Under the pieces are notes generated by a model. That model made no database searches and was not told the DNA's origin. It worked only from the letters and a program-made list of their open reading frames with translations. The position numbers and the translations under genes are program-made. Shown piece after piece: positions 18,282-39,632 of a stretch of DNA of 64,000 nt. Position 1 is the stretch's first letter. Each line of letters starts with the position of its first letter. Where the stretch lies: NCBI GenBank assembly GCA_003550305.1, contig QKYT01000078.1:158392-222391 (forward strand). Direction: 5' to 3'. The DNA comes from Glomus cerebriforme. Lineage: Eukaryota > Glomeromycota > Glomeromycetes > Glomerales > Glomeraceae.

Positions 18282-18283
18282 TA

Positions 18284-18332
18284 GTGGGATACCACCATGT
18301 AATATAAATTATATTACATGGTGGTATCCCAC
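18284..18332. repeat. terminal palindrome, left end
   Basis: Two perfect 24-nt arms (from GTGGGATACCACC inward) flank a single central A. As a single strand it would fold into a full hairpin. The same structure closes the right end. Confidence 0.9.
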
Positions 18333-18339
18333 TTACCCT

Positions 18340-18667
18340 AGATTATATTACCACCATATAATCTGGATACCACCGTATGATCTAAATACCACCATAATCT
18401 GGGTACCACCATATGATCTAAATACCACCATAATAATCTGAGTACCACCATATGATCTAAATAATATAATCTAATTATCACCATATAATCTAAATAATAT
18501 AATCTAATTATCACCATAAAATCTATTTATTTTCGCGTATCAGGTATCTTTTTTATACTCTAGCTATCCTTTTAAATCTTTCTTGCTATCTGTATTTTTT
18601 ACCACCATATAATCTAACTACCACCCACCATTTAACCTAACTACCACTATATAATCTAAATACCACG
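18340..18667 (+). repeat. subterminal TACCACCATATxATCTAA repeats
   Basis: Roughly a dozen degenerate units of 17-21 bp with the core TACCACCATA followed by ATCTAA or ATCTGG, some changed to ATCACCATA. They are mirrored at 39240-39570. Arrays like this commonly bind a transposase or replication initiator. The spacer 18530-18600 is unrelated. Confidence 0.75.
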
Positions 18668-19279
18668 CTTTTCTTCTTGTTTCTGAGTCGTTTACATGCT
18701 AAATTCTTTAATGGAGTTGTTGGTCCTCTGTAGCTGTTTAGATATCTGGTTTTATGTTGAGGATGCTGACCTCCTGCACCTGGTTGGGTGCTGGATTCTA
18801 TATTGGAGTGCTTACCCTTTGCGCCTATTTGGTTGCCTTTCTAGATACCAAAATGTGGTAAAAAAAATATGGTGTCGGGTAGCGCAATAAATTCGTGGTT
18901 AATTTCGGCCGGCACTATACCATAATTTTGGCCGATCTTTAGGACATGTGATTTGGAGGATCCAAGCTGGCACCATGGTAGTGACTTGGTAATATCCTGG
19001 AGCTGTCATGGAACTAGTGAGGAATGCCAGAGAGGTTCCTATTAGTTCACCAGCTTGGATGCAGAATTATTAATTCCAAAGTTCTGGCTAAAATTATGGA
19101 ATAGTGTTAGCCAAAATTTTCATTAATTTTACTGCGCCTTTAGTTCTGGGTACTTTCCCATCACCTTCTTGTAACTTTTATTTTGTATATACATTATCCC
19201 CATTTTGTGAATGATTGGGAACATAATAGTGATAATGCATATATGAAATAAAAATCACAATAAGTGGTAATACTTTTAC

Positions 19280-20800
19280 TTATACAATATTACCGGCTAG
19301 GTTTAATTCTGCTTCTGACCTTCTATTTGACACCAAGAGTGAGGCCGAAGAAGACTTATCTTTTGGATGTATATCCGGTTGCCACTTTTCTGAATTTATA
19401 CTAATGATATAGTAGCCAAGTGCCAATATTTCTGAAGAAGCCTTCATATCATATCCAGATACATATCTAGAAATGTATTTAACAATAGTGCTTAAAATAA
19501 AATCTGACAAATTACAGTTTTATGACAACTTGATATAATACTAATGGAGTAATGCTATGTCTTAAAATTTTCCATTTATTTGTAAGATTTCTTGTAAAAC
19601 AGAAGATCGCATGTGGTTGCATCTTTGTTTGAGTTCACAATCCCCCTATTTCAATTGTAATCACAAAAAATCAGAATATTTGTTCATCATGGATCAAGAT
19701 TCTGTAGATGACAAATCACACATGTATCACCAATTCCTATTCAAAAATGGATTAATATCTGAGTAATCTGTACACATAATTTGAATGCGCTAACATCAGT
19801 AGGATAATAAAAATTTACCATTTATCTGAAGATTTGCAAATCATAGATTTTAATCGCTCTATTTTTATTTTTGAATTTCTTTTTAATGATGTCCTATCTT
19901 ACGATCTGCAAATATAAATCAGGGATGTGGTTTTTTATTAATAATTCAGAACTGCGTAATGAATGAGATAGAATATACCAGAACTTCTTTTGGCTTAGTA
20001 CTGGGGAAAGTTTATTAGTATAGTAACACAAAAATATTGCTCTTGGTTGAGTTTATTAATAGATCCTCTGCCTTGGCAAAAATGATGACTGCGGTTGCTA
20101 GTGATATACTACTGCGCATAGAATATTCTGTGGATATGAACCAGTGTCATATTACTGCGGAGAAGAATAAATGACGTTTTACTATGGATGATATCTAAGC
20201 CATCCACGTGATTCAAAAAAAAAAGAAATGAAGTAACATCTTTTAGAAAATAATTATTTGTCTACGCATTTCAGGACCTTTATTTTCAGCATCATTAAGC
20301 AAATTTACTACTATTTCTGTAGTTGTCAATTGGTATAATGTCGCAACTGATCCATGGCTTAACTATCCTTTTTTGTCTTCTCCCATTTGAGTGATGAAAT
20401 TAATTATATGATTGTCTATTTTATTTCTATAATATTCTGCTTTAGAGACGAGTCCATCTTGACTGGATGCATCACAAAATGCCTTCATACTAAAGAGTTC
20501 TCTCATTAAGGAGTGATATGCTTTTTTTTTTGGATTATCTCATTAGTTTTTGAACTTAATCGAAAGATTAATAAAGTTATCAACCCAAGGCATATTTTTT
20601 TGATCATATGATAATACTTCGTAAACTTTATCAACTACTAGACCTTGACGAATAAGTTCTCATAATTCTGTATCTATTACTGTAAGACTTTTGGACTGGG
20701 TCTTATTGGCTGATGTTGAAGTTACTGATGTATGGTATGGATTGAATATGTCTTTTATTCTTTTTACGAACTATATTCTTAGAAGAGTGAATTCAAAATC
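19280..20800 (-). pseudogene. decayed element gene of unknown function
   Basis: On the minus strand, coding-like blocks can be followed from about 20800 (a D-K-V-Y-E-V-L helix, N-M-P-W-V-D-N-F-I-N-L, K-K-A-Y-H-S-L-M-R-E-L-F, L-Y-Q-L-T-T-T-E-I-V-V-N-L-L) through a C-x2-C-H-L fragment near 19730 to a better preserved end (19280-19510) with E-K-W-Q-P-D-I-H-P and S-L-L-V-S-N-R-R. Many stops and shifts intervene, so the whole may be more than one gene. Its 3' end lies inside the left TIR and is therefore also present in the right TIR. A second fragment lies outside the element at 6785-7110. I do not recognise it; because it spans the TIR edge it is a candidate for an element-specific protein. Confidence 0.4.
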
Positions 20801-20948
20801 TTAAAGGAAAAAAAATATTATAAAACATGTGACATAAATACTGTGAAGAAGAATTACTGTGCATGATATCTATAAGCCACCCATATGGTTTAAAAAATAT
20901 ATGCAATAATTCAGTCTATATAAGTATGCGATCTACCTTAAAATTTAC

Positions 20949-21813: not shown

Positions 21814-22042
21814 GATTGATAAATTTTATACAAGAAGTGAAATATTCAAAAGTTAGTTAGTATATATATATAGAGACTGTAATATTTTACCAAGAGAAAT
21901 AAGTTATAAAGTTACCAGATTTTTGGGATCGCGCGGTCTCAGAAAAATGCCAAGAAAAAAAAACATTTTATTAATACATATGAAAAATAAATACAAATGT
22001 TTGGGATTGTACCTAGAATACATAAAGTTTCTATATTAAAAC

Positions 22043-23479
22043 CTATTTATTTGACTTGGTCTTTTTGAGACCCTTTCTAGCAAGGTTACTTGATAACTTA
22101 TACTTTTTTATTGTCCTTTCTTCACTTTGAGAATCAGAATCTGGCTTCTGTGCTTCATCCAATAACCATGCAAAATGTCTAAGAACCCTTTCCACCTTAG
22201 CTTGCAAATTTTCATCATTATATACAACGATAACTAGTTTTGATAGCTTAAACAATAGCTTCCTCAGTCTTGTTATACAAACATTCTGAAAAATAATACT
22301 TTTCTGCATCTGTGACAGTTTCAAAAGTTTTTTCTGTAAACACATTCTCCTTCTTCCATTTTACTAGCTTTATACTTACAGTTTCATAAGGCTGATTCAA
22401 GTTATACAGTATTCTAAAAAAAGCCTTATCCTTTACTTCTGTCTTACTAACAGTTTTTGCAGTTTTGAGCAAATCTATCATGAAATCGACTGAACTGTGA
22501 CCATTGGGCTTTTTTCTCTGGTCAAAACTTAAACTTACCTTTATATAGATTTATCCTAGTGACAAGGTATAAATAAACATATTGTAATTTTGATGCTTCA
22601 TTTTTACTGATTGGAATGGCCATTCAGCTCAGCTATAAAGATGTTTAAGTATTGCCCGAAAAGAAAGATGATTCAAATCTTTGTATTCGCAAGTGAAAGG
22701 CAGGAATACTGATAATGATGGGTCATCTGATCCATCAAGTCCGTAAAGCTGACATACTTAGAAATGACAAATCCAAGAAAGTATTTCTATGAATACAGTA
22801 AACTTGAGATTGTTCTTTGATACGAATATGCAGAGCATTTCACGAAAGTCTTGATCGTTATAAAAGAAGTATTTTTGCTGTTATTTAACACGTTGAGTTT
22901 CATCTATCATTTTTATGTGCAGGTGGATGATATATCTTACGTATATATTCTTTAAGGCCTATGTTTGATATTTGCAGTCTACTTATTTGCCTTTTGTTTC
23001 AGATAAACAACGACGTTAAAGTCTGCAATACAAATGCTGAATTAATAGATTTTATAACCTAAAATTTTGTTCTTGACTATGGTCAAGAGGGAAAAAACTA
23101 CATATCATGTGAAGTTTCTTCTTTGATGAGGTGACTTCCTTAAGTAATTCCTGTTTACGGCTCGAAGTGACAGTTGACACGTATGGGTGGTTCGACTAAA
23201 ACATGAATATGTTCTTCGGGAGGTGATTCATGGAAGTATTTCAAAGTATTTTTCATTGCAAGAAGTTCAGGTACTTCATGAAGTGAGAGATTGTTTATGA
23301 GATCATTTGTCAGGAATTTCCTTTTTTCATAACTTGAGCTTGTCTGCAGGAAAGTTATCGAACTCTAGTGCCTTTTTCACTTAATAGTATCTTTGAGCTC
23401 ACTAACAGGCTCTTCCCTACTTATTTTAACAGAGAAAGTGTTTGTGGTTGTATTTTCTTTGATATAAAGTGATAGACAT
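22043..23479 (-). pseudogene. Crinkler A: ubiquitin-like header plus nuclease-type C-terminus, decayed
   Basis: The header starts at 23479 (M-S-I-T-L) and, after a one-base slip, shows N-T-F-S-V-K-I, an E-L-K-D-T-I-K helix, A-D-K-L-K-L and the closing H-I-H-V-L-V-E-P-P at about 23190. The middle (22590-22870) has F-T-V-F-I-E-T and the D-G-S-D-D-P-S-L-S-V-F block. The C-terminus (22043-22520) carries G-H-S-S-V-D-F followed about 14 residues on by T-E-V-K, a D...E-x-K arrangement typical of PD-(D/E)XK nucleases, and ends in S-D-S-Q-S-E-E-R and a basic tail. CRN proteins of this kind are thought to act on nucleic acids in the nucleus. Several stops, at least two frameshifts and probable introns make this copy inactive. 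The breaks are described here only; no repair is attempted. Confidence 0.65.
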
Positions 23480-23630
23480 AGAGGGTTAGATACTATTTTT
23501 TTGTGAAATAGTGTGTAAAAAAATTTTATTTGCGCTAAAAATATGTCATATGTGATCAGCCACATTAGTGTAATATGTGTAAGTATTTTAGGGAAATATA
23601 TTATTAAGCAAGTTATCTTTATAATATAAA

Positions 23631-24222
23631 ATGAACAGAGCAAGGGAAAACTTTTTAAAGATCTTTAGTTCTGTGCTCACCAAAGCGTCTGTTGAAATTG
23701 ATCAAAACCCTTCTTTAGGAGAAAATAACTCTAATAACTCAACTAACAAGAATAAGATACAAGGTATTAAGAGTGTGACGCTTCTTTTCAAGTATTATTA
23801 AATATTGAACCTATTATAATTGATATTTAGAGGACGATTTGTTCTACTATTTGCCTAATGATGACGATTATAGTGATTCTGAAGAGTCTAAAGTGATAAT
23901 GATTAAACTTAGTATCTGTGTAATATCTGATCAACTCTGATTCAGTAAGTTTCTTGAAGATTGTCAAACTAACTGTTCATATTTCATTCTAAATTAAGTT
24001 TCTCTCAAAAGATTTTACAAAGAAACGTGCAAATTTCCTGACCCAAAATACTTCTTCGATCTCAAGACAAAAGGACTCACTACTCGTGAAAAATTTGTTG
24101 CATGGTGGAATGAAAACCACCCAGATTGTCAAATCACAGTTGATTCTATTGAGAAATGGACTTATCGTGATGAAGAAGATCCTTCAAGCTATAATATTCA
24201 TTGGATTGAATATGGAGATTGA
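23631..24222 (+). CDS. unknown acidic/W-W-N-E-N-H protein gene, probably 3 exons
   Basis: ATG at 23631, 150 bp from the divergent start of Crinkler A. The first exon (to about 23762, donor GTATTA) is basic-amphipathic then Asn/Ser-rich. The second (about 23831-23890) is acidic (E-D-D-L-F-Y-Y-L-P-N-D-D-D). The third starts near 24000 and gives a compact domain: P-D-P-K-Y-F-F-D-L, L-T-T-R-E-K-F-V-A-W-W-N-E-N-H-P, I-E-K-W and a W-I-E-Y-G-D end. The second exon junction is uncertain. I do not know the family; the Trp-rich block resembles a small DNA- or protein-binding module. It is one of the few element genes without an obvious stop. Confidence 0.5.
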
Positions 24223-25953: not shown

Positions 25954-27792
25954 TTATTTTTTGATAAATTTTTTGATTCTAGCCCTCTTGCTAGACGGAG
26001 AACTATCAACACTAACCCAATTCTTCAATAACCCTACAATTATGCCAATTACCCTTTTCATGTTGCTTTAAAGTAATTCAGAATTATCTTTAACTGCGAA
26101 CTTCATAAGATTAATCTGATGTTCACTACCGCTTGTGAAAAAGATGCCATCTGGAGTGTATATGATAAAATGCCACTCCGTACCTGTGGTCACAATACCA
26201 TAGTATAGTCGAATTAGTCATTCCCAAATGCTTGATCTGCAGTTCATTTTTTCTTATTTGTTTAGAATGCACTTTCAAGTTGTGCCAGATTTTAAGAAAT
26301 AAACCATCATTAATATCTCTAATATGTTAGAAAGCAAAAATGTAGATAGTAGACCCACTTGCGCATATCCAATCTTAATATTTCATGATTTTCCTTCAGT
26401 GATACAGAGGAGGTCTTCTAGACTTTTGATTGCATAGTCTACTCAGCCTGTTGCATCCTCACCGGAAATGACCTTTTGAAACACTATAAATATATCTTGG
26501 GAGGTAAGTTTTTTAGCTATAGTGATAGATGCATAGAGGATTGATGAAATAAATTCATAGTGTGTTACCTTGTTAGCATTAGTCATAGTTTTCACATTTG
26601 AAAGTTTTAAGATTATATCCTTTATACAGTGATCAAGAGCCTTATCATCATCATTAATCTCCTCAAAGACTGTGGAGAAAAAATAAGCAGTTATTACTAT
26701 ATTTATGATGGACCATTCTAGAGCAGATGTAAAATAAAAATAATCACTTACTGGGAGTAAATTGCTTAATGCTTGTTATATCTTCGCCATTGACCTTATT
26801 TTTTCACAATATCTTCTTCAAATTGTCAAGAGTTTTAAGCGAGAAATAGTTTTATAATTTCTGGCTAAGATTCTCAATAAATTTTGCAAGTCTCTTTGCA
26901 AGGACAGCTTTTATACCATAACTTCAAAACTCTTCTTTAGTTGTATTAAAAAAGTCAAGGCCAGCAATTTTCTCTTTGCAAAGAATTTTAATATCATCCT
27001 CATCAAGTTTTAAGTCTTTTCTTCCCAAATAATCGATAAGCTCCTTTGTATTAAAATCCTTAACAACATCTGACATTGTTCGAGAAGATATTTCTTCTGT
27101 TATTGAAACAGGTGAAGTGGGTGAAGAAGCTTATGAAAACATAGAGTTTATATATGTGTATTTGTACTTGCAAAAAATATGCAGTTACAGCCTTACAGGT
27201 AAAGCTAGTTATAGATAAAAAAGTATTTTGGTTTCAGCATTCGGAGAGAAATGATAGATTTTTTTGTATCGATTCATAATGCATTTGTTCAATAAATAAT
27301 ATTTTATTTATGAAATAAAAAAAATGTTGCCAGAGCAACTGATACATAAAACTTGGCCATTAGCTATTAAGGCGCTTCGCAGATATTTTGCACGACTATA
27401 TAGCATTACATTTTTTACTGAAATGCTTGAATATCTAAATATACTATAATGCGAATATCTTTTTTGTAAGGCTGACCAGAAAAATGCTCAAGAATATTAG
27501 ATATTGGGAATTGCTCACTTCCTATCTTAGTCTTATTTTGTACACTATTCATTACTGATTCAGCATTAATTGATGCTTCTTTTTTATCTGAATTTAAATC
27601 AATCGCACAGACCACGAATTTAGTAATTGGAATATTATCAAACTGAGGTAAATGTTCTTCTTTAATTTGTTTTCTGAGCGAATGGATAGATTTCCTATTA
27701 TCAATACTGATTGTAATAACATGATGTCGTATGATTTTCTTAACTGGATAGTTATTAGGAATAACAAGACAGTTAAGTCTAATTTCTGACAT
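25954..27792 (-). pseudogene. Crinkler B: header, SAM domain, PD-(D/E)XK-like C-terminus, decayed
   Basis: The header (27419-27792) starts M-S-E-I-R-L-N-C-L-V with the usual strand, helix and I-R-I-I-V-Y-L close, and remains open. After a likely intron (donor GTAAAA at 27418, acceptor near 27130; my phase count does not close, so the junction is uncertain) comes a SAM-like domain (about 26830-27076: M-S-D-V-V-K-D-F, E-L-I-D-Y-L, I-A-G-L-D-F-F, helix L-A-K-F-I-E-N-L). The C-terminus has an acidic helix, a V-D-Y-A-I-K-S-L-E-D-L-L-C-I-T-E-G-K block (D...E-x-K, nuclease-like), and a W-H-F-I-I-Y-T-P-D-G strand. It ends at 25954 after a basic tail. Roughly eight in-frame stops but few shifts. Probable nucleic-acid-targeting effector-like protein, inactive here. 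Confidence 0.65.
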
Positions 27793-28344
27793 TTTGCTTT
27801 TCCTAAATATAAAGGCTCATAGTGAATAAATTTTTAACTTTACATATATAAAGATATTTTGAAATATTTTATTATAAATAGCAGTTATATTTAATACATA
27901 CCTTAATTTTTCGTAGGAAGGTTGGCTGAACTTTCACATACTCTTACATTGCTTTATATCTTGCTGAGAAAAAGTTAAGGAGGTATGAGTCATAATTAGT
28001 ATTGTTGTCTGGTGCCAAGAGTTCTATGAAAGTGCATGCAAATAGAATTTTCAAACCTTTTCACATGTAGATCTACCGGAGAGATCATAGTTGGTTTTAC
28101 ATTTAGCGATCTTGAAATTGTGAGTCCCTCAGCCTTTCATAATATATGTTTTTGCCATCATTATTTGTTTATAGGATAGGTCCTATGTTGCAACTAGACG
28201 CTCTTTCACATTTTCTTATATTTGTTTGGGAAAAAAATAGAGGGACTTAATCAGCATATGTATTTTCTTTTCTTTATATGCAAAATTTAATATATCACAC
28301 AGACCTATTATATGATTAGCTTATTTTGTCACACATGAGTACAC

Positions 28345-29240
28345 GTATTGGCTGAGCCATTAAGGCGCTTCACAAGGTGCTGTGTATGGCTCAGCAAATT
28401 CTTCTGAACTGGTGATTATTACTCTGAGCTGATGAGCACTATTCTGGACTCTAAATTAAATGTATGCTAACCAGAGGTAAACACAATCATGATAAGCAAT
28501 ACTAATAATAATTCTGATCAAGTCAATGCTTTTATATAAGAAGAAAGATATAATAGCTATTCAGAAAAAACTCAGTATGTTCCCAGATCCAAAGAAGGGA
28601 CCTATTGAGAGTAGAAATCAAATAGCATTGAATCAAAGCAAAAAAAGAAATAACACTTGAAGATTCATTTGGGCTATTATTTGATTTGATGAGGGAATTA
28701 ATAGATATACGGGGAGATCTTAATGTGAATTGCCACCCCATTCTTATTATATTATATAATAATATACATGATCTTAAGGGAGAAACATATGGAAAAAGGA
28801 CACTTGGGACATTATATCATTTGCTTTTATATTTGGAAGAGGATATAAGTATGATTCAGAATGTTCTTGGTATTGTTAGTTATTCTGATCAGAAAATAAG
28901 TGAATTAGAAGAAGCCAATAAAAATGCAAGAGCGTATCTTCAAAACTTTTGATAATTTCTTACCTTTAGTGCCTTTGGCAAAAAATGGTTCAGGTGTGTT
29001 AATACAGAAATTTATCTATAGGAAGTGAAAATGTTTTATTTTACTGAAAAATAACTACTATTATTTCAATTGTGTAAAAATTCAGCTAGTGTCAGATTAG
29101 CTAATCTATATTTTTTGTTGTACAGGGTATAATCCAGCAAAAAAATCTTTCAAGCTGATCACTGATCCAGATTAGTTAGTAGAATACCACTATTCTGGGA
29201 CTAATATTCTTTCACCAACTCTATGTCACCGGCGCATCTG
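28345..29240 (+). repeat. internal segmental duplication, copy 1
   Basis: Matches 31140-32035 in direct orientation over leader, gene and trailer: GGCTCAGCAAATTCTTC, then TTATATAAGAAGAA, then the small gene, then TAGCTAATCTATATTTTTT and GATCACTGATCCAGATTAG. The copies have diverged by many substitutions and small indels. Confidence 0.75.
28510..28952 (+). pseudogene. helical protein of the element, copy 1
   Basis: Codes for a mostly helical protein. Start region L-L-Y-K-K-K-D-I-I-A-I-Q-K-K-L, then after a shift near 28645 an intact part (28686-28952) with M-R-E-L-I-D-I-R-G-D-L, L-L-L-Y-L-E-E-D-I-S-M-I-Q and Y-S-D-Q-K-I-S-E-L-E-E-A. It is paralogous to 31318-31839, which is longer and ends in P-L-F-S-N. 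No known domain; possibly a coiled coil. The early frameshift makes it a pseudogene or a gene with an internal start. Confidence 0.5.
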
Positions 29241-29264
29241 AGATAGAACTGAATTCTGATTATC

Positions 29265-30120
29265 TCACATACTTAGATCTAAAAGACTCTGAAGGCTTTG
29301 AGCTAAAAACTGTTTACTAGCAATGTTATTCTGTATAAGATGATTTCTAACCACTTTAATGAGATCAGGAGGCGTTAAAGTTTTCACAAAATTCTCTATG
29401 TGGATATTCGAATTTAGTTTATCTATAACTACTTTGCTAATTTTACAATATCTCCTTAAATTAAGATATTTTAAATTAAGACATGATTTAGCAATTTCTT
29501 TGATAGTTATATTGGTAATTTTACAAAAGCTAAGGCTGAGATGCTGAAGCCTTGGGCAAGAGCAAATGATATTACAAATTAATAGTTCACAAATATCTGT
29601 GCAGTAAGAAATATTTAGATATTCTAATTTATGATATGACTGGATAATTGCATATAAACCTTTACTAGTTATTATGCCCATATTACAGGATATATACTCA
29701 TCTTTTTGCAAATTAAGATACTTCAGATTGGGGTATGATTCTGCTATTTGTTTTAGTATTTTATTACTAAATCCTATGTTAAATTTTAAATCTAAATAAA
29801 CTATATTTGGGAATTTATGTGCAATATCATTGAATTTTTTATCTGAAAGTAGATGGTAGTTTGAAATTTCTAGATATGTTAGATTTGAGCTATAAACTGG
29901 CCTTTGTTTTCTTCATGCCATTTTCATAAATTTTTTCAATTGAGAGTGTTATGTCCATTCTAGCTCAATACGCCTCCATAGAATAGGGATACTGCATCTG
30001 TACCATAATTGGGATACAAATAGAGTGGGATAGAGTGACTTATCTACTGCTAAGAAATGTAAAATATATCCTAATAGTTCTGGTAAATAAAAGATACTTG
30101 ATTATGCTATATATAGTGCA
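29265..30120 (-). pseudogene. F-box/LRR (FBXL/AMN1-type) gene, stop-interrupted
   Basis: The minus strand first shows a clear F-box (about 29980-30110): Y-L-P-E-L-L-G-Y-I-L-H-F-L, L-W-Y-R-C-S-I-P-I-L-W-R-R-I-E-L-E-W. Leucine-rich repeats of the cysteine-containing FBXL type follow ([29 protein letters not shown]) to 29265. F-box proteins recruit substrates to SCF ubiquitin ligases and the LRRs bind the substrate. Two in-frame stops (near 29948 and 29910) separate the F-box from the LRRs while the frame is kept. An upstream stop near 30125 suggests a lost 5' exon. It looks like a captured host-type gene carried by the element. Confidence 0.7.
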
Positions 30121-30258
30121 TATTATATGTTATATCTTTAAACAAAAAATAAAATTACGCATATTGGTGATAGATCTAGCAAAATTTGTCAAAAGCACTG
30201 TATATGGCTCAGCAAATTCTTCTGAGCTGATGATTATTGTTCTGGACTAGTCAGAGTA

Positions 30259-31074: not shown

Positions 31075-31139
31075 TTTATATGATTAGTAGAAATTTCAAT
31101 CGGAAAAAATAGAGAGACTAGTAGCTAATATTTTCTTTT

Positions 31140-32035
31140 GATATATGCATATGGCTCAGCAAATTCTTCCAAACTAGTAATCACCACTCTGGATTGATAA
31201 TCAGTATTACAGACTTGGCCTTAAGGCGCTTTGCTAAATTTTCTGCATTAAATATATTACTTTATTATAGCAATCATAGCAAATAATCCTGAAATAGTTA
31301 ATCAATTATATGAAGTGCTATTATATAAGAAGAAGGATATAATAGCTATTTAGAAAAAACTTGGTATTAATGGTAATACAAATCAAATGGTAAACATTAA
31401 AGCAAGAAGGCGAAAAACACTTGCTGATTCATATGAGTTATTAAATTTGGTGGAGGATATAATACTAATAATACGGGATGATCTCAGCATTGATGGCAAT
31501 CCCATTCTAGAAGAGGCACTCCAAAACAATAAAGCTTCTATGGATATTTCATATAGAGAAATATGTAATTTGCTTTTATACCTGAAAGAGGATATAATAG
31601 CAATTCAGGATGAACTCAGTATTATTGATTATTCTAATCAAGAAAGGGTAGAAAAAGTCAATGAAAAAGTAAGAGTATATCTTCAAAAGTTTGAGGAATT
31701 TCACAGTCCATTAGAAGATAATCCAAGTGTGATTTTACAGAAATATAGTGAAATGGTGATAAATAAAATTCAGTTTACTGGAGAGGGACATCCACTATTT
31801 TCAAATCTCTTCCTCAACAATTACACAAAATTTTCATAAAAAATTCAACTAGCACCGATCAGTGCCCATGTTTAATATAAGTTAGCTAATCTATATTTTT
31901 TATCACATAGACTATAACCCAATAAAAAATCTTCTGAGCTAATCACTGATCCAGATTAGTTAGATCAGTAAAATACTACCATTCTGGGGCTAATATTCTT
32001 TCACCAGCTCTATCATCACTCTGGATTGACATTTA
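31140..32035 (+). repeat. internal segmental duplication, copy 2
   Basis: Direct repeat of 28345-29240, with the same leader, small gene and trailer words. The minus-strand F-box genes at 29265-31074 lie between the two copies, so the block could be a composite that grew by duplication. Confidence 0.75.
31318..31839 (+). CDS. helical protein of the element, copy 2
   Basis: Open from ATG 31387 for 150 aa; homology to copy 1 begins at 31318 but an in-frame TAG lies near 31360. Helical, acidic: L-V-E-D-I-I-L-I-I-R-D-D-L-S-I, N-P-I-L-E-E-A-L, L-L-L-Y-L-K-E-D-I-I-A-I-Q-D-E-L, then Q-K-Y-S-E-M-V-I-N-K and P-L-F-S-N. The shorter form may still be made. No known domain, and function unknown. Confidence 0.5.
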
Positions 32036-32091
32036 TCAGATAGCTAATTAGCCTTATTTTTTATTATATGCATTTTTTTCTGATCTTTCCT

Positions 32092-32379
32092 TTAGGCTAG
32101 ATGCTTCCAAATCCTTTGATGCTTAATCATGTTTACCATTTTATCAATATCAGAATCAGATGAACTAGACTCAGATGAATTAGTCTCAGATGACAAACTA
32201 GATTCAGACGAACTACTCCCAGATGACGAACTAGACTCGAATGAAATAGTCTCTGATAACGAACTAGACTCAGATAAACTATTCTCAAATGAGCTTGATT
32301 CAGATGAACTAGTCTCAGATGAAGTAGACTTGGGTGGGATATTGGTTAAGGCTGTCAGATCCTTTTGGTCACTTTCCAT
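32092..32379 (-). CDS. Ser/Glu-rich low-complexity protein, 95 aa
   Basis: Starts M-E-S-D-Q-K-D-L, runs through about 60 residues that are mostly Ser and Glu with Thr/Asn, and ends in a basic helix (D-K-M-V-N-M-I-K-H-Q-R). The Ser-Glu tract translates as an Asp-Glu-Leu tract on the other strand, so the plus frame 32129-32443 is its shadow. It could be a disordered linker protein or a repeat-driven frame. It follows the recombinase-like gene on the same strand. Confidence 0.4.
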   Translation of the reverse strand: MESDQKDLTALTNIPPKSTSSETSSSESSSFENSLSESSSLSETISFESSSSSGSSSSESSLSSETNSSESSSSDSDIDKMVNMIKHQRIWKHLA

Positions 32380-32472
32380 TTTGATTATTTATCTGATAAA
32401 CTTAATATCTTACCTCGAACGAAAAAATAAAATTAATAAATGATATCCTGACCCTCTAACCCATATATATGA

Positions 32473-33440
32473 TTAGTTTTCATTAAAGAGTTTGAATGCT
32501 TTTACCTGATGATACGGTTCTCTCCTTAACCAATAATTTACTATAGTATAGTTTTTTGCAGGAGAGGCATGGTTATTAGGCAAATATTGAAGTGATTTAC
32601 TGGCAATAGTCATAGCCTTTGATAAATTCTTTACTCCATGAGCTACAACTGCAAATACTGCCCCTAATTTGCGCAAATAGCTTGGAAGCAGTAATTTATC
32701 ACTTTTTAGGAGAAATTCATCTTTTTTCAAAAATGCACTTAAGTATATAGATTCAGGCTTTTTAGGATCTCTTAACTGTTTAAAAGAAATTGCTTTCTGA
32801 ATCCATGTAAGTAATTGTCTTGCCCGCTTCTCGTTCTTTTTCAGTGATTCAAATACTCGAAGAATGTTTTATATCCCCTATTTTTTGCGTATCCAGTTAT
32901 ACCTCCATTAAATATGTGCAAATTTTTAATTTCAGCAGGATGGATGCAGAGCATGATCATTACATCTGCTAGAGCTTATTTATTAGGTATATTAGATATG
33001 TTATATTCATCTAATCTTTCCTTAACTGATTCTAATAAAAAGTGATCCAGAAAATCGATCCCTTCATTTTTGTGTTATTCAGTGCGTTCCTGTTGGATTT
33101 TATTAGATGCTCTAGTTATCTCCAGAATCTTGGTAGCAAAGATTATTTTTTCTGAAGTATTGAGGGTTCACAATTCTCTTCAAAACCTAGAGAGATGTAA
33201 TAAGATGATGACAGGATCAGAAGCAGTTTCAACTAAGGTTTTAGATATCACTTTTACATTTCTTTCACTAAGATTATCCTGAACAATACGCTGAGCCATT
33301 TCTTTAATAGTTTTCTCAGAACAAGTACTATTAGATACCTGATACAGTACCTGCTCCGGCCAAAATATGTTTTGCATATATTTGAAAATTGTGGGTAAAT
33401 AGGATATGCAGAAAAAAATACATAATCATGGAATCCCATT
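32473..33440 (-). pseudogene. tyrosine-recombinase-like protein, decayed
   Basis: The minus strand encodes an integrase-like protein. An N-terminal helical region (33180-33377) with E-K-T-I-K-E-M-A-Q-R-I and L-V-E-T-A-S-D-P is followed by a core block (about 32880-33010) L-A-D-V-M-I-M-L-C-I-H-P-A-E-I-K-N-L and I-T-G-Y-A-K-N-R-G. The position of the first catalytic Arg of tyrosine recombinases (the R-x-x-E pattern) is His here, and K-N-R fits the beta-hairpin Lys. The C-terminus (32473-32730) has P-S-Y-L-R-K-L-G-A-V-F, an S-L-Q-Y-L-P-N-N-H segment and K-N-Y-T-I-V-N-Y, placed like the L-R, H/W and Tyr boxes. Five or so stops and a shift near 32860 break it. Family call is by motif layout. Confidence 0.55.
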
Positions 33441-33685
33441 CCAAAGCTATGAACGAATTATTTATATCAATTCACATTTTAGTAAAGTGTACGTACTAGA
33501 GCTAATATTTCTTCCAGTTCTAAAGCATTTGTCTTAGTGAACATATCATATAAAACATTTGGCTTATACTTTGAATGAGCTAAATTCGGATGATAGAGGA
33601 ATTTTATGAATATGTTGTTTCTCTAAGCTTTTGTCTCTTCATGCCTCTAGCATAATTTTAATAGTTAGCATAAAGTGAGATTGTG

Positions 33686-33997
33686 TCAATTAGCTTTGAG
33701 TAAAATTTGCAATAGACTTATTTTTTTATTAACCACTGCTAGTAAACTTCTTTCTAATACAATGTTCCAAATATGATATGAAATGAAAGAAAGATATCTT
33801 TTTAATATTGGCAATTCATGTAAAGGTGGAATTAAAAGCCTTTCTTCTCTCCAATATATATATCCTCTGAGTAGCAATTTATGATATACTGGCCCATTTA
33901 TAATTATCATGTGATTAGATTTGGGGTTATATATTTTTTTGTAAACTTTATTAGTCAGTGGATCTAATATATCCATAGCATTAGTATGAAAAGTCAT
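33686..33997 (-). CDS. N-P-K-S/G-P-x-Y adaptor-like protein, truncated
   Basis: Open for 103 aa. The N-terminus has Y-N-P-K-S-N-H-M-I-I-I-N-G-P-V-Y-H-K-L-L, which resembles the small adaptor motif (N-P-x-T-x-x-x-I-x-x-x-G-x-x-Y-x-x-L) found in proteins of large DNA viruses, without the usual Cys. It continues with L-L-I-P-P-L-H-E-L-P and F-I-S-Y-H-I-W-N-I-V-L-E, an F-box-like or helical segment, and then stops. It lies between the recombinase-like and primase-helicase genes on the same strand. The virus-type resemblance is by pattern only. Confidence 0.4.
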   Translation of the reverse strand: MTFHTNAMDILDPLTNKVYKKIYNPKSNHMIIINGPVYHKLLLRGYIYWREERLLIPPLHELPILKRYLSFISYHIWNIVLERSLLAVVNKKISLLQILLKAN

Positions 33998-34497
33998 TTA
34001 TGACCTATTTTAATATTGAATAATTTAAATACATATTTTATTATAAAATTAAAAGTGAAATAGAGTTTTATATCCTAAAATACTTACATAGATCATATTA
34101 TTTACTAGTATATCAAAAGAGATAGTTCCATTTGTGGGGGAATCTGTACTCATACTACTGGTTGTGCAAGACACTGGAAATTATATGAAAAAATATGAAA
34201 AAAAGACCATACCTGGTTTGTGGATTTCCTACTGATGTTGATTCGGAGTATTGCGCCAAATATTGTTCTAAATATTTTGCAAAATATCATGCAATGAATT
34301 ATTGAATAAGAATGAAGTATGGGGCTGTTGCCCTTCAACCCAAAATCTCCTCTAAATTGTCTGTCAAGGAATGAGCAAAAAATATTATTTCATTCATTAG
34401 TCGATTATTATATAAAATCTTAGCAGAAGCCTATGTCTCAAAAGTATGTAATTATGTATCCTGACTAGAGTGCCACAAGAATAGATATTTTTTACTG

Positions 34498-34553: not shown

Positions 34554-34560
34554 ATTAAAT

Positions 34561-37500
34561 AGTATTAGCATATATTGAATAAGTCCTGAATATTTTTTGT
34601 AATTTGTGTATTATCCACTTTACTAAAACTAGTAAAATTATCTAATATTAATCCATTGGATAGAAATTTACTATACCTATATCGAGTATCTTTCCTATTT
34701 TTCCAATAAATTTCTCCATCCGTTTGATATGAAGGTAATCTAGGAGTGTCTTTAGTATCAAATGATCCATCTAGGTAATAATACCTGCAACTTCTATCTA
34801 TAGCCTTAAATTTCAACCCATAAGTTGCATAAAGTGCTGAATTCAGTAAACCAAGTTTTGTCTGATCTGTTTTTAATCCTGATTTTTTAGCTTTGCATGA
34901 TGCATCTGTATTATCAAATACCTGAGCCATTCTGGGAAATAACTTATGGAGATATGATAATGATTCAGGAGAATTCAGATGCATCTTAACATTATCAGAT
35001 TTATATCTGGTTCTATCATCGATATCTAGTTGGTGTGCAAATTCTTAATAATTCTAGGTAAATTCGATGCCTCTCAGCCCGGGTTGCAGTTGTGAGCCTA
35101 TTTTCTCTGTAATCTTTATGGAATATAGCCTCAACAGCCATTTTATTGTTAGTACCAGCATCTCGTAATTGCTTATAAGTCCTAAACCATTTCATATGAT
35201 TGTAATTCCCATACTTTGAGATGAAATTCTCAGTTAATGATTCAGGTGAAATTTTATAATAATTTACAATATGATGCCTGTCTAAAGAGCGCATCTCTTC
35301 TAAAGTCTTCTTTGATTTATTCTTCAATAATTTAGCAGTCTTACGATCGATAATAGTAGCATTAGATACATCTGCTATCTCCTCTACTTTAATGGTAAAG
35401 AAACTCGCCTTCACTGTTTAGGATAGTGACATCATAGTATTTTCAGGTTTAGAAATGAGTTCTATGACAGAAATTATCATACCCACATTTTAGAGAAAAT
35501 CAATTATCTTCCAACCAAAATAAGTGCTAGAAACAGAATCTTTTCAACATATAGGCCACCCATAAACGAACAGTTGGTATATCCTTATTCTGAATGATAG
35601 AGTCTATATCTGAAAATATTTCTCTATTCTGAAGTTTCCAGGGGAGACATTCGTATTTAGTATTTAACAACCATTGGAATAATCCATTCTTTGTGACTGG
35701 AATGTTAAAAAATCTCTGCTCAATATAGCATATATAATTTTTAATATACTATAACATCTGATTCGTTCTAGCATTTGTTTCTATGTAGCAATTAAAAAGA
35801 CAGAATGCTTGCTCAAACTTTGGATTAGTGCAAGATACTCCTATTTTTAGAGTACTAGTATATGCAACAAGATTCACATCACTCCATGATTCTTCTACAT
35901 TGCTAAAATCCTGAGCTTTTTCCATTGAATTGGATTTGCCATAATATTCCTTGATTCGTAATTCTGAAAAATCAGTCTTAGGAGTACGAGAAATCCCTTG
36001 TACGTCCTTTCTGAGATGGCAGATAAGTGAAGTACTTTTCTGATTCTCAAATGGTAGTGAAGACATTTTCTTGGCCCAATCCCAGAGTTCAGCTAATACA
36101 ATTTCTTTATTAGGAGCCAAGCGGAATGTCTTATCTTTCTGAGGCTGATAAGTATTGTGGATAACTGAGAATGGTTTATCCTTATGAAAGGCCTTAATCC
36201 ATTTGATATTTAGATCAGTTAGATCGTTATCCATGATGATAATGTGCCTTGCATTTTAAACCAATTTATATAACTTTTCTATCAATTGTCTGGCCAAATG
36301 ACTCTGTACCTGAGCAATTATAGACACTATTTCATCAAGCTACAAATCGTATTGGATTGGAGAGTATTTGCATTTTTTATTACATTTACAATTATTAGTA
36401 ATATAATGTAAACTTTCTATCTGATATACTACCCTCTTGTGATCAGGTAGATTTATATTACTATTGATATCATAATATGATTTGAGATTGAGTCTTGTAG
36501 TAATAGCATTCAAGTAAGAGTGGCGCGTAGATAATACTAGCAAATTCACGTCATCAGATATAGTAGGATGCTCTAGAACATATGTTTTTCCTGTCTTCCA
36601 AGGTAATCCTACATAGATATTGCCTTCATTGGGTAATAGTCTTACATATCTTTCCTTATATATTTCTGTCGCTGTAAAGGTTTCATTATACTTAACCCAA
36701 GATGGTATTTTTACGAAGACTTTAGGAAAACCTAGACCCTTTATTCTATAAGAGGTGGAAGATAAATTTTTATTTTCTTTCTGAATTTTTTCTGCAATAG
36801 ATGGGTCACATTCAAAAACTTTTTCACGTTCATCACTATTTTGCCAAAAGCATTTTACGATAAACATCCCACTGCTAGCACATACATAACCAAACTACCA
36901 CTGAACCTTGTTATGTATGCAATTACATTATGAACACTCTAGTGGAGCTTTCTGGTTAAAATATATGAAGTTTTCTGAGTCCTTTTCTTCAATAGTCCAA
37001 TCCCTAAGATAGTTAGAATGTCTTTACAAAACAAGGTCTGTGCATTTTTGTAATATATTATGACCTACGATTATTCTTAGTAGATTATTATTTTTTTCTG
37101 TACTAAGTAATCAGAGTCTTACTCCAAACTCTAAGCTAGTAGGTGACTGAAGATTGAGGTCATTTCACTCATTATCTAGTGAGAATTGAAGAATGCGTTT
37201 CACATGATCTTTTTTTGCTAAACCAATAAGGCAAAGGTTAAAATTCTGACCAGGTAATCCTCGATCAATATACTTACCAAATTTTTTCCTGATTAAGGTA
37301 TATACTAATTCTGTGAATGCTTTGAGTTTATGATGATCGATAAAGAGAGCCAGTGCATATAAAATGTGGTAGCTACACTTACTAGGGTCTGATAATATAG
37401 CGATTACCAATCTTCTGAGAATATCTTCCCAGCTACAATCAAGAATTCAATATAAAGCTCTTATGAAAGATAAACAGATTCAAATGAATACTTCTTGTAC

Positions 37501-38137
37501 ATTAACACTATTTGCTTTCATATCTTCTTGTAAAGTATCTATATCGATTATGGCTCTTAAAGGGTTTTAACCATTAATACATTTATGAATCCCAGGCAAG
37601 TCGTATACTTCAGAAATATCATCTGCAATGGAAAACTTTGGGCTCGATTACCATCTTGGTCGATTTTGATAACCAATTTATCTTTTACTTCATCCTGGTC
37701 ATAAGCATTATATAAACTAGACTCTTTTTCATTTAGAAAGAGAAATAAATAGATTGGAAAATATTCTAATGATCTCTTTTCATCTGACATATCTCTAGAT
37801 GGTGATAGGAAATTTCTCGAATGACATTTAGCAAGTCCTTGAAAGAAAAATTATTATTAAACTTTTCCTATCTTAAAGTATATGCCACATTAATCTTTTG
37901 CTTTTTTATATTTGGTGGTTGAACCAATGGAGTCTTGATAGTGCTGGTTAAAGTGCAGAAAGCTTCTTCATTATCTGATTCATAATTAAACTCATAGTCA
38001 TTATAATCATCTGACCCTAAGTCAGATTTATTATCAGTGCAACTGCTTGAGTTACTTAAATATTCATCGGAACTGATGCCATCATAGCGGGCAGTTCCAG
38101 TGTGATCAGTTTGGTTGAAAATAATTGAGATATGCAT
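34561..38137 (-). pseudogene. primase (AEP) fused to origin-binding-type SF2 helicase, decayed
   Basis: A large minus-strand gene from ATG 38137. An acidic Ser/Asp-rich N-terminus (37868-38137) is followed by an archaeo-eukaryotic primase domain (about 37165-37640): I-D-I-D (the D-x-D metal pair), S-D-P-S-K-C-S-Y-H-I (S-x-H) and N-F-N-L-C-L-I-G. After a broken Cys-containing linker comes a helicase domain (35749-36867) like herpes-type origin-binding proteins: G-L-P-W-K-T-G-K-T (Walker A), L-V-L-S-T-R-H-S, V-V-Y-Q-I-E-S-L-H, and L-D-E-I-V (Walker B, just after a stop at 36340). A C-terminal region (34565-35414) follows, with no domain recognised. Such fusions start and unwind replication forks in viruses and plasmid-like elements. 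About ten stops or shifts (near 37870, 37800, 37165, 36340, 35749, 35430) inactivate this copy. Confidence 0.75.
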
Positions 38138-38274
38138 GTCATTAGTTTGAAAAGGTTTATATTACTTTATAAAATTCAGAAATGTTTAATTATTTTTTTT
38201 TGATGAATACAAAAAAGAAGCGATATCGAACTTAGTCGGCAAATTATAAAAAAATACAACTTGATATACCCTAA

Positions 38275-38330
38275 AAAGTGTAGCCTTCTGCGTAATCTAT
38301 TATATAAAAATTGGCAGAAGGCTACACTTT
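38275..38330. repeat. AAAGTGTAGCCTTCTGC hairpin, copy 2 (perfect arms)
   Basis: Seventeen-base perfect inverted arms (38275-38291 and 38314-38330) around a 22-nt AT-rich loop containing TATTATATAA. It lies about 140 bp upstream of the primase-helicase start codon. Confidence 0.85.
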
Positions 38331-38390
38331 CTAGACATGTATTTGGGTATGGTATAAATGGACCAGCTATGATAATACGTAATGCAACTG

Positions 38391-38446
38391 AAAGTGAAGG
38401 TATCTGTGAAATTATTATATAAAAATATGGCAGATGCCTTCACTTT
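38391..38446. repeat. AAAGTGAAGG hairpin, copy 3
   Basis: Arms 38391-38406 and 38431-38446 pair over 16 bases with one mismatch around the same TTATTATATAA-type loop. It is the same size and layout as copy 2, 60 bp further from the gene and just inside the right TIR. Confidence 0.8.
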
Positions 38447-38494
38447 TTTAGATATGTACTCAAATATAATATAGCCTCTGTGTAAGATTTATCC

Positions 38495-39632
38495 TTCCTA
38501 GATATGTATTCAGATATGATATGAAGGCTTCTTTAGAAATATTAGTACTTGGCTACTCTTTCATTAGTATGAATTTAGAAAAGTGGCAACCGGATATACA
38601 TCCAGAATATAAGTCTTCTTCAGCCTCACTCTTAGTGTCAAATAGGAGGTTAGAAGCAGAATTAAACCTAGTCAGTAATATTGTGTAAGTAAAAGTATTA
38701 TCACTTATTGTAATTTTTATTTCATATATGCATTATCACTATTATGTTTTCAATCGATCACAAAATGGGATAATATATATATGAAATAAAAGTTACAAGA
38801 AAGTGACGGGAAAGTACCCAGAACTAAAGGTATAGTAAAATTAACAAAAATTTTGGCCAACACTATTTTATGATTTTGACCAGAACTTTGGATATAATAA
38901 TTCTGCATTCAAGCTGGTAAACAAGTTGCTACCATGGTGCCAGCTTGGATCCTCCAAATCACATATCCTAAAAATTGGCCAAAATTATGGTATAGTGCCA
39001 GCTGAAATTAATTACAAATTTACTGCGCCACTTGACACCATATTTTTTTTTACTACATTTTGGTATCTCGAAAAGCAACCAAATAGGCGCAAAGAATAAG
39101 TACTCCAATATAGAATCCAGCACCCAACCAGGTGCAGGAGGTCAGCATTCTTAACATAAAACCAGATATCTAAACAGCTACAGAGGACTAACAACTCCAT
39201 TAAAGAATTTAGCATGTAAATGACTCAGAAACAAGAAGAAAAGTGTGGTATTTAGATTATATAGTGGTAGTTAGGTTAAATGGTGGGTGGTAGTTAGATT
39301 ATATGGTGGTAAAAAAATACAGATAGCAAGAAAGATTTAAAAGGATAGCTAGAGTATAAAAAAGATACCTGATACGCGAAAATAAATAGATTTTATGGTG
39401 ATAATTAGATTATATTATTTAGATTATATGGTGATAATTAGATTATATTATTTAGATCATATGGTGGTACTCAGATTATTATGGTGGTATTTAGATCATA
39501 TGGTGGTACCCAGATTATATGGTAGTATTTAGATCATACGGTAATATCCAGATTATATGGTGGTAATATAATCTAGGATAAGTAGGATACCACTATGTAA
39601 TATAATTTATATTACATAGTGGTATCCCACTA
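38495..39632 (-). repeat. right terminal inverted repeat of the giant element
   Basis: Reverse complement of 18282-19472. It contains, from inside out, a 55-codon copy of the element-gene end (plus strand, 38521-38688, W-Q-P-D-I-H-P), the unique block, the subterminal repeats (39240-39570) and the terminal palindrome. The frame 39012-39215 (minus) is the mirror of 18696-18890 (plus); both are conserved as part of the TIR and need not be genes. Confidence 0.85.
39582..39630. repeat. terminal palindrome, right end
   Basis: Twenty-four-base arms around one central T with a single mismatch (GTAGG against CCCAC). It mirrors the left palindrome in size and position. Confidence 0.85.

Follow-up and report, generated by a model that had tools for sequence, protein, structure and literature searches.

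A decayed giant inverted-repeat element of probable viral descent in a BTB-BACK gene of Glomus cerebriforme

The insertion and its ends

The window, that is, the whole 64,000-nucleotide stretch of Glomus cerebriforme DNA analysed here, holds a large insert with terminal inverted repeats (TIRs) within a host BTB-BACK gene (Table 1). The host frame rejoined at the junction has no stop and resembles, over residues 1-63, uninterrupted BTB-BACK paralogues on contigs C668 (76%) and C388 (73%), which were found when 150 of the 538 candidates were scored. The insertion, already proposed in the first-pass annotation together with the rejoined frame, is confirmed.

Comparison with other copies set the ends of the element proper, which measures 21,349 bp and reads AGTGGG...CCCACT. 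Because the base outside AGT... differs among the copies (T, G, C or A), the limits first drawn (18282..39632) each move inward by one base and the target-site duplication is 5 bp. The GAG initially taken as a 3-bp duplication is the core of AGAGT, and the empty site is unchanged. The TIRs of 1,191 and 1,137 bp bear out the early estimate of ~1.15 kb. Their arms pair in six main blocks that are 84-100% complementary (18282-19473 with 38495-39632); a MAFFT alignment gave 1055 identical columns out of 1133 aligned, with 62 gap columns, and homology falls to background beyond ~1.2 kb. A second element, with its left end on C40 and its right end on C1101, is flanked by CATGT, and a third, on C860, by GAATT. 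Exact 5-bp duplications were present in all three pairs with both ends readable, a count leaving out C738, C796 and C625, in each of which one end is degraded or unlocated.

Both TIRs end in palindromic tips. All 31 tips examined are ~50-bp palindromes at TIR ends, 30 of them retrieved with a search pattern demanding a palindrome at positions 1-11. Arm positions were complementary in 701 of 751 cases over the 31 tips, and 48 of the 50 mismatches were transitions. At tip positions 13-22, which the pattern leaves unconstrained, 294 of 310 were paired, and each position showed two to four kinds of base. Evidently, the tip arms co-vary, at the pattern-free positions too. Kaumoebavirus, of the extended Asfarviridae, is described with a 102-bp terminal hairpin adjoining a 1032-bp TIR (PMC7909422). 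The tips may be opened hairpin telomeres, the palindromes being what is read in integrated copies, an idea to which we give slightly less than an even chance.

Table 1. Features of the window element and its host gene
Feature	Position	Strand	Remarks
Whole element	18283..39631	.	ends from other copies
Target-site duplication AGAGT, left copy	18278..18282	+	
Target-site duplication AGAGT, right copy	39632..39636	+	
Left TIR	18283..19473	+	inverted-arm alignment
Right TIR	38495..39631	-	inverted-arm alignment
Palindromic tip, left end	18283..18333	+	51 bp (24-bp stem, 3-nt loop); fold z -11.5
Palindromic tip, right end	39581..39631	-	51 bp; fold z -9.4
Host BTB-BACK gene, 5' side of junction	18207..18282	+	paralogue match
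Host BTB-BACK gene, 3' side of junction	39637..40070	+	BACK E 0.004, below cut-off; paralogue match
Further Crinkler N-terminal domain (two ORFs)	23155..23664	-	E 0.001 and 0.003, under cut-off in each ORF
Cargo conserved with sister element	25957..26202	-	homology
SAM-like/Crinkler-associated cargo	26756..27130	-	homologous to L071:744-1412
Crinkler N-terminal domain ORF	27415..27816	-	PF20147 E 4e-8, above cut-off
Conserved unknown protein	28523..28949	+	match in two frames; related to 31282-31839
F-box/LRR gene	29265..30101	-	LRR_4 9e-8; F-box-like 4e-5, just under cut-off; syntenic
Conserved unknown protein	31282..31839	+	58% to L071:2557-3198; related to 28523-28949
Ser-rich ORF	32092..32388	-	by eye: sister element has similar start, same place
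Putative tyrosine recombinase/integrase, broken	32473..33425	-	two frames; pieces with 4 and 2 stops
Conserved protein, broken	33482..33997	-	4 stops; relative L066:940-1455
Small Cys-rich conserved protein	34115..34371	+	match in two frames; tblastn to L066:1545-2036
Primase + UL9/origin-binding-type helicase gene, broken	34565..38161	-	PF02399 E 1e-4; resembles 1202-aa open frame of C730

Gene content and order across the family

The helicase gene of the window copy carries four frame changes, and 14 stops within its five matched pieces. It scored 20.9 bits against PF02399 (cut-off 20), a family found in all 15 aligned helicase homologues (chosen from 88); origin-binding protein structures were matched by this type of helicase at E 7e-5. 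Of the primase-helicase annotated at first, the helicase part stands; the primase half is putative, by a motif read by eye. A further family in the same role can be labelled D5-like only weakly, as Pox_D5 gave E 0.008, below the cut-off, and RFX scored better; D5 was reported as undetected in five R. irregularis genomes (PMC10640383). The relative of the broken conserved protein next to these genes weakly matches 2C_adapt (PF08793), below the cut-off, and that of the small Cys-rich protein gave no Pfam match.

No PolB match was found in the window copy. In relatives, profile matches were obtained to DNA_pol_B_exo1 (E 1e-13, C625) and DNA_pol_B (E 1e-11, C860), of families PF03104/PF00136, and the best solved structures, at E 1e-25 and 1.5e-17, were chains named 'DNA polymerase' with lengths of 992-1206 aa. 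These chains we take to be African swine fever virus Pol. In a published tree, the R. irregularis DNAP branches within Asfarviridae (PMC5294986). By the profiles, the structures and that tree, the PolB of C625 and C860 can be assigned to the asfar type.

The R/K/R/H/Y series of the putative recombinase is kept in 97/114, 107/108, 106/118, 110/114 and 111/112 of those homologues, among the 120 listed, that have a residue at the position, in line with the recombinase-like genes annotated before. Among 272 well-filled columns its first arginine ranks 113th in conservation and the second 89th. Profile libraries gave no significant match as a tyrosine recombinase (in one library, among the best 25 of 46 families), nor was hhalign against phage integrases significant. 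Weak matches were obtained to the Tc5-transposase DNA-binding HTH in 8 of 18 homologues (best E 0.004) and to PIN_12 in 4 of 18 (best E 0.0006), and one homologue carries the database name 'd5-like helicase-primase'. The identification is thus at motif level. As tyrosine recombinases are reported to make no target duplications (PMC12220804), the 5-bp duplications suggest another enzyme or a special mode; whether the recombinase is the integrase of the element we judge an even question.

With the left TIR as query, 79 segments, including the two arms of the window element, were matched in the assembly (1,117 contigs), forming 50 TIR loci. Fourteen of these have an asfarvirus-like PolB 1.4-3 kb inside and pointing inward, while 17 others have the primase-helicase and/or the putative tyrosine recombinase inside, likewise pointing inward; the two ends never share one TIR (0/50 loci). 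Within 15 kb inward of a TIR, PolB was found at 15 loci (14 pointing inward; 0.31 expected by density), the UL9-type helicase at 4 (all 4; 0.11), the D5-like gene at 13 (12; 0.26) and the recombinase at 15 (14; 0.37), whereas the outward control beside the 50 loci gave zero for each. The recombinase lies 4.3-8.6 kb inside the TIR at 12 of 14 loci. None of the four gene families occurs inward in the expected orientation at 19 loci, and none inside at 17. The inward genes and the empty outward control place the loci in one family, a new TIR element family almost beyond doubt. A lack of other copies with matching ends would have refuted the first-pass suggestion of such an element; it was not refuted, for the same genome has two further complete end pairs besides the 50 TIR loci.

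In fuller members the order is [~1-kb TIR with ~50-bp palindromic tip] PolB> ... cargo ... <tyrosine recombinase <2C-adaptor-like protein <primase-helicase (UL9-type or D5-like) [TIR], as assembled from partial copies, none of those read being complete and intact. The C860 element, of 31.8 kb, is itself decayed (18.8 kb and both ends read), and the unit size is estimated at about 21-45 kb, or 25-45 kb for the family with the full gene order. Crinkler, SAM and F-box/LRR genes make up the cargo. In the window the cargo is largely syntenic with the sister element on C625 and not random. The effector-like gene noted previously is a Crinkler N-terminal domain; of the F-box assignment, the LRR part held while the F-box-like match fell just under the cut-off, and the relative of the SAM-like cargo matched SAM_1 at E 0.002, also under it.

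The window copy is dead and internally reduced, with no PolB, a broken helicase and recombinase, and depleted CpG. The missing PolB, the breaks in the replication genes and the palindromic tips had all escaped the first-pass annotation. The CpG o/e of the window copy is 0.42 versus 0.96 and 1.01 in the flanking 10 kb on each side; in other copies, stretches retaining long open frames gave 0.84-1.02.

Alternative explanations and known systems

The best of the alternatives, though improbable, is a conventional DDE TIR transposon whose viral replication genes and effectors are captured cargo. A DDE transposase is compatible with exact duplications of 5 bp, the 17 loci lacking the four gene families are as expected of non-autonomous derivatives, and the Tc5-type HTH matches point the same way. 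Nevertheless, the constant end position of PolB or recombinase/helicase, seen in 31 of 50 loci, is too regular for cargo, and a transposase catalytic domain was absent from the ORFs scanned, namely 25 of the 99 of the window element with its borders and 26 of relatives.

Scattered, immobile fragments of endogenous asfar-like giant viruses are a somewhat less probable explanation. The PolB genes have been so read, in agreement with the DNAP tree above: 59 putative viral regions were reported in five R. irregularis strains, all but a 1.5-Mb one below 300 kb, and in those below 300 kb the described gene content is confined to PolB, at 15-33 copies per genome, and/or a single mRNA-capping gene (PMC10640383). 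A recurrent TIR-bounded unit with fixed gene order, exact target duplications, a unit size put at 21-45 kb and zero outward matches argues against such relics.

We give the same low standing to a Polinton or Polinton-like virus with an rve integrase and capsid genes that escaped notice. TIR length, AG...CT ends, self-encoded polymerase and size would suit it, as would the TIRs with a 5-6 bp target duplication that characterize Polintons/Mavericks and are found in the window element, and 'Maverick' is one of the TEs reported as recently expanded in R. irregularis (PMC8647823). Polintons, Polinton-like viruses and virophages are likewise described as 14-40 kb long, with TIRs ranging from hundreds to thousands of bp, with short target duplications and with a self-encoded family-B polymerase, some also having a tyrosine recombinase (PMC12220804, PMC8547959). 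However, the PolB of the relatives is of PF03104/PF00136, resembling a viral polymerase of 992-1206 aa, and not of the protein-primed type, and the conserved core holds the recombinase-like gene. The UL9- or D5-like primase-helicase, the palindromic tips and named homologues confined to Glomeromycotina further distinguish the family. No match to rve or capsid was obtained in the same sets of 25/99 and 26 ORFs, C860 having been read over 18.8 of its 31.8 kb; absence of capsid rests on published searches by others, which report MCP as not found in five R. irregularis genomes (PMC10640383).

The hairpin-like tips and replication genes would be accounted for by a linear plasmid or an episome with hairpin ends that integrates only by host repair, without its own integrase, but the exact ends and duplications in 3/3 readable pairs make this marginally less probable still. 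An assembly chimera, to which the fragmented assembly and the copy split over C40/C1101 might point, is dismissed by the duplication, the in-frame host join matching paralogues and the same structure on many separate contigs.

Among known systems, the extended Asfarviridae (Kaumoebavirus; ASFV) share the PolB kinship, and the hairpin that lies immediately beyond a TIR of 1 kb (PMC7909422) is comparable in size to the palindromic tips of integrated copies, whereas the new family forms integrated units, by estimate 21-45 kb long, that are present many times, bear target duplications and have their own recombinase-like gene; no virion or transcription genes of Asfarviridae were seen in the 25/99 window ORFs and 26 ORFs of relatives. 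Transpovirons, including that of a pacmanvirus, are similarly linear DNA with TIRs, a helicase and an association with large DNA viruses, yet are described as 7 kb long and living with virions rather than in a host chromosome, the account naming a helicase but neither PolB nor recombinase (PMC11788076). Teratorn is comparable as a virus and a transposon fused into one giant mobile element, though described as a piggyBac-type transposon of 180 kb in medaka. Its viral part is a herpesvirus. Starships are described as giant cargo elements of fungi with a tyrosine recombinase. They belong to Pezizomycotina, with the captain recombinase at one end, and we know of none with TIRs or replication genes. 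Starship identity was rejected on the TIRs and on the internal position of the recombinase (12/14 loci); the captain domain was absent among the best 25 of 46 families matched by recombinase homologues. Cryptons are to our knowledge small, lacking TIRs and replication genes, and the TIRs of the window element exclude this identity as well. The resemblance would lie in the recombinase, which is putative in the new family, Cryptons being described as tyrosine recombinase DNA transposons of fungi (PMC12220804).

Proposed mechanism and implications

The best reading is a class of TIR elements in Glomeromycotina that is virus-derived and self-replicating and that differs from Polintons, Cryptons and Starships in the tested features; the family of mobile elements is apparently undescribed. 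That the class is virus-derived and self-replicating we regard as very probable, and that the insert is a dead member of such a mobile replicon family, integrated in a Rhizophagus-type genome as explained here, as likely. The first-pass view of a virus- or plasmid-like giant inverted-repeat element outside known classes, with cargo and with replication and recombinase-like genes, is supported in part; its ends, its duplication and the state of the window copy are corrected.

In the proposed mechanism, the element would copy itself as linear DNA by means of its own PolB and primase-helicase, although neither activity nor an extrachromosomal form was observed. The tip palindrome would be a hairpin telomere, nicked at its base and copied out upon integration, where the recombinase may resolve or integrate the ends and a 5-bp staggered join would be made. 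The integrated copy would then be methylated and decay by C-to-T change. A bolder proposition, possible but rather unlikely, is that capsid-less asfarvirus descendants live as a transposon in arbuscular mycorrhizal fungi. The replicon would be linear and hairpin-ended and would encode a polymerase and a primase-helicase of its own; its tyrosine-recombinase-like enzyme would act on the tips as telomere resolvase and integrase, and with its standing Crinkler/F-box set it would have spread effector-type genes through Glomeromycotina.

Viral PolB and origin-binding genes have been published as separate viral relics, the 'replication origin-binding' genes of these fungi being interpreted as transferred to the common ancestor and inherited vertically thereafter (PMC10234402); full-text literature searches returned no account joining both into one element. 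If they are parts of one element, the lone asfar-like PolB genes, reported as infection traces (PMC5294986, PMC10640383), would be explained together with the origin-binding genes. If that element is mobile, claims of gene birth and virus infection would need revision, and the Crinkler and F-box/LRR families would gain a vehicle. The element would moreover be a transposon whose genomic copies preserve viral hairpin telomeres, making the virus-to-transposon step directly testable. Perhaps the same element also lies behind part of the unclassified or 'Maverick' repeats.

Element ends, host gene and palindromic tips

The terminal inverted repeat (TIR) arms of the window element are 1,191 and 1,137 bp long and identical in 1,055 of 1,133 aligned columns, in agreement with the first-pass annotation, which gave about 1.15 kb. 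Its limits of 18282 and 39632 and its 3-bp GAG duplication did not withstand comparison of copies. All four bases (T, G, C, A) occur directly outside AGT... in other copies; therefore, the outermost base belongs to the host, the element spans 18283-39631, and the duplicated sequence is AGAGT (5 bp). A 3-bp duplication is rejected on this ground, as are CACTA-type ends (TAGTG...CACTA as read first); CACTA elements have the reverse of these ends. A second readable end pair, with its ends on two other contigs (C40 and C1101), is flanked by CATGT, and a third, that of a 31.8-kb relative on C860, by GAATT. Exact 5-bp duplications, each of different sequence, were thus found in all three readable pairs, the left end of the C738 relative, the left tip of that on C796 and the right end of that on C625 having been searched for and not located.

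When a single AGAGT is kept, the host frame joined across the junction aligns without gaps or stops to uninterrupted BTB-BACK-like paralogues, the best showing 76% identity over 63/63 residues; 150 of 538 candidates were scored. On the left, the longer host ORF lies in a different frame from the joined one, which indicates another change of frame further upstream in this host copy.

The outermost 51 bp at each end form a 24-bp stem with a 3-nt loop, with folding z of -11.5 and -9.4 (-2.9 for a control of 52 nt alongside). A pattern derived from the tips matched the genome 36 times at 30 sites, some of them without a TIR match, and the reversed control gave 0; six sites matched on both strands, for which one orientation was taken. 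The tip on C796 (L078) represents a second TIR subfamily, beginning AGTCGC..., of other sequence and the same palindromic form. Across these 31 tips, arm positions are complementary in 701 of 751 cases, and transitions make up 48 of the 50 mismatches. Pairing holds in 294 of 310 cases at positions 13-22, on which the pattern placed no constraint and where two to four base types occur per position, which means that changes in the two arms go together and that decay comes afterwards. This co-change would be directly explained by a hairpin telomere that was copied out during integration; alternatives for the same pairing are gene conversion between the arms and selection to keep a binding site symmetric. 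A 102-bp hairpin outside a 1,032-bp TIR has been described in the asfar-like Kaumoebavirus (part of PMC7909422).

Features in the window and in fetched stretches of relatives (L numbers)
Position	Strand	Feature
1-8000; 52001-56000		CpG-poor flank stretches, o/e 0.28, 0.47, 0.61; possibly more silenced repeats
823-1397		287 bp in two identical copies with one base between them; either a recent tandem duplication or an artefact of the assembly
14174-15085	+	ORF matching class 3 lipase (E 1e-19), upstream of the split host gene
17959		longer left host ORF
18283-39631		element, 21,349 bp
25957-32388		cargo: Crinkler domain, SAM-like, F-box/LRR, related unknowns
28385; 30203; 31150		three related 66-nt repeats near two related unknown ORFs
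40382-41881	-	open frame in right flank, 499 aa, F-box-like domain
44001-48000		GC up to 0.33; possibly another mobile gene, ORF 45453-46205, with sub-threshold P-loop-type matches only
L067:1-2129		DNA flanking the C860 element, CpG o/e 0.13; perhaps an older repeat
L070:3222-3575; L074:4672-4998		ORFs, retropepsin-like by eye, inside two sister elements; no Pfam match for either

Gene order in the family

The proposed search for further copies was run in the same genome (112.5 Mb, 1,117 contigs; window G000:C918:158392-222391). The window TIR matched 79 segments and the C860 TIR 83, own copies included, which were reduced by hand to 51 intervals and, after merging, 50 loci; the two further end pairs described above (CATGT and GAATT) belong to these copies. 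Tips found by the pattern alone (e.g. on C953, C85, C206 and C651) are outside this count. For each gene family one interval per locus was entered by hand, the remaining segments being dropped as additional pieces of the same loci. The counts are lower bounds, since the searches scored the best candidates only (40 of 126 and 40 of 107 for the TIRs).

Gene families on the inward side of the 50 TIR loci
Family	Segments	Loci	TIR loci with gene within 15 kb inward	Pointing inward	Expected by density
PolB	74	47	15	14	0.31
UL9-type helicase	25	16	4	4	0.11
D5-like	63	39	13	12	0.26
Putative recombinase	72	55	15	14	0.37

On the outward side, none of the four families gave a match at any of the 50 loci. 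PolB lies 1.4-3.0 kb from the TIR match at 14 loci, 17 others are helicase and/or recombinase ends, and no locus is of both types; 17 of the 50 have none of the four families inward, and two more have them in opposite orientation only. The recombinase follows the D5-like gene 1.4-2.6 kb downstream in 20 of the 22 pairs that share a strand within 12 kb, and the UL9-type gene 3.5-8.9 kb downstream in 6/6, while 8 of 10 PolB-recombinase pairs within 60 kb are convergent. These positions and orientations give the unit as [TIR] PolB> ... <recombinase <primase-helicase [TIR], in which two alternative helicase modules apparently occupy the same slot. Unit sizes were estimated from gene and TIR positions, except for the window and C860 elements.

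Judging by table entries (same scaffold name, same-length contigs), the linkage may extend to other genera. In Diversispora, the recombinase and origin-binding genes share scaffold 73, and the origin-binding gene and PolB share scaffolds 426 and 117; in Gigaspora rosea, 42,450-bp contigs would link recombinase with origin-binding gene and 312,926-bp contigs recombinase with PolB.

Replication proteins, putative recombinase and a possible mode of movement

The PolB pieces of the C625 and C860 elements match the family-B models for the exonuclease (E 1e-13) and for the polymerase (E 1e-11). Among solved structures, they match best to chains of 992-1206 aa labelled DNA polymerase (E 1e-25 and 1.5e-17), which we take to be the African swine fever virus polymerase. 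The R. irregularis DNAP was placed within Asfarviridae (PMC5294986, in part). No PolB match was obtained in the window copy.

On C730, the relative of the window primase-helicase is an open frame of 1,202 aa, with 91% identity to a Rhizophagus clarus protein (P0002) and 88% to one of R. irregularis (P0004) over the whole query region, which points to a Rhizophagus-type arbuscular mycorrhizal fungus as the probable host. The Herpes_ori_bp model matches the helicase in 15/15 aligned members (hand-picked from 88), and solved origin-binding proteins are matched with E 7e-5. The helicase half of the gene as first annotated is therefore upheld. The primase half is proposed as putative from motifs read by eye, and the window copy of the gene is broken. 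The D5-like protein matches Pox_D5 with E 0.008, under the cut-off, and RFX scores better; a further point against the D5-like label is that PMC10640383 reports five R. irregularis genomes in which no D5 was detected. A 2C-adaptor-like neighbour is likewise under the cut-off (E 0.0016).

The protein is called a putative tyrosine recombinase for its conserved R-K-R-H-Y series, kept as R in 97/114, K in 107/108, R in 106/118, H in 110/114 and Y in 111/112. In conservation, the columns of the two arginines rank 113th and 89th of 272, so not among the highest; the residue replacing them is Cys or His in 25 of 29 cases, which is what C-to-T decay of CGN codons would produce. Among the 120 listed of 453 homologues, four are named 'integrase' (P0103, P0126, P0191, P0199) and one 'd5-like helicase-primase' (P0194). 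No PHROGs, NCBIfam, Pfam or PDB profile among the matches listed was that of a recombinase; weak matches were to a Tc5-type HTH (8/18) and PIN_12 (4/18). Alignment with lambda, HP1 and Cre by hhalign was not significant (P 0.24-0.54), the best local matches being located at the arginine or histidine boxes.

Among the 88 helicase, 99 PolB-piece and 120 listed recombinase homologues, every organism named is of the Glomeromycotina, a statement covering name-bearing rows, many PolB and recombinase rows being without a name. Scans of viral contigs yielded no relatives with the primase-helicase alignment (118 pattern matches), the recombinase alignment (35) or the PolB piece (1), and no match with the subterminal DNA pattern; a search of the TIR against phages gave no lead.

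Judged from this anatomy, the element most likely replicates as linear DNA by its own polymerase and primase-helicase, with hairpins closing its ends; opening of these ends where the palindrome begins at its base would then allow them to be joined to a target cut with a 5-bp stagger. In cryptophyte Polinton-like viruses, true duplications are lacking with the tyrosine recombinase and are 6 bp long with rve (PMC12220804, in part). The exact 5-bp duplications would accordingly mean a sequence-matched 5-bp crossover, a recombinase of unusual type or a DDE enzyme that escaped notice.

Known classes, decay and cargo

The element would work similarly to self-synthesising elements. It differs from Polintons in polymerase type, and from Cryptons and Starships in bearing TIRs, so that the misfit with Maverick and Starship noted earlier is borne out by tested features. 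A reading as a GEVE fragment was considered and rejected. The parts are already published, the joined unit apparently is not: in the sections consulted, PolB copies (15-33 per genome) were read as viral regions and the major capsid protein as absent (PMC10640383), the origin-binding genes as a single ancient transfer that was then inherited vertically, and the Crinkler and F-box/LRR genes as novelties of Glomeromycotina (PMC10234402). The R. irregularis TE curation used profiles of reverse transcriptases, named transposase superfamilies and DIRS/Crypton tyrosine recombinases, and lists Crypton and Maverick families (PMC11075540, in part). No description of such an element was found in the portions of the open PMC literature consulted.

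A functional window copy is rejected, because the primase-helicase matches come in five pieces of changing frame (1, 0, 11, 2 and 0 stops), with stops also in the recombinase pieces (4 and 2) and the 2C-like gene (4). The TIR arms differ by 71 transitions and 7 transversions. Read as C-to-T, the transitions fall at CA 36, CC 15, CG 13 and CT 7, where the left arm has 144, 104, 32 and 127 sites of these kinds, so that CG is most affected per site, followed by CA. The element has a CpG o/e of 0.42 as against 0.96 and 1.01 in the nearest 10 kb, though parts of the flanks further out are CpG-poor as well; the ratio is 0.84-1.02 in the long-open-frame stretches of C730, C953, C1101 and the right part of C625, 0.66 at the left end of C625 and 0.45-0.54 in the decayed C860. 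CG methylation over TEs has been reported in R. irregularis (part of PMC8647823).

The cargo stands largely in the same order in the C625 sister element, which indicates an inherited set and excludes a random one. Several copies (fetched stretches L066, L069, L012 and L013) have single N bases scattered in their tips and in frames that are open apart from these.
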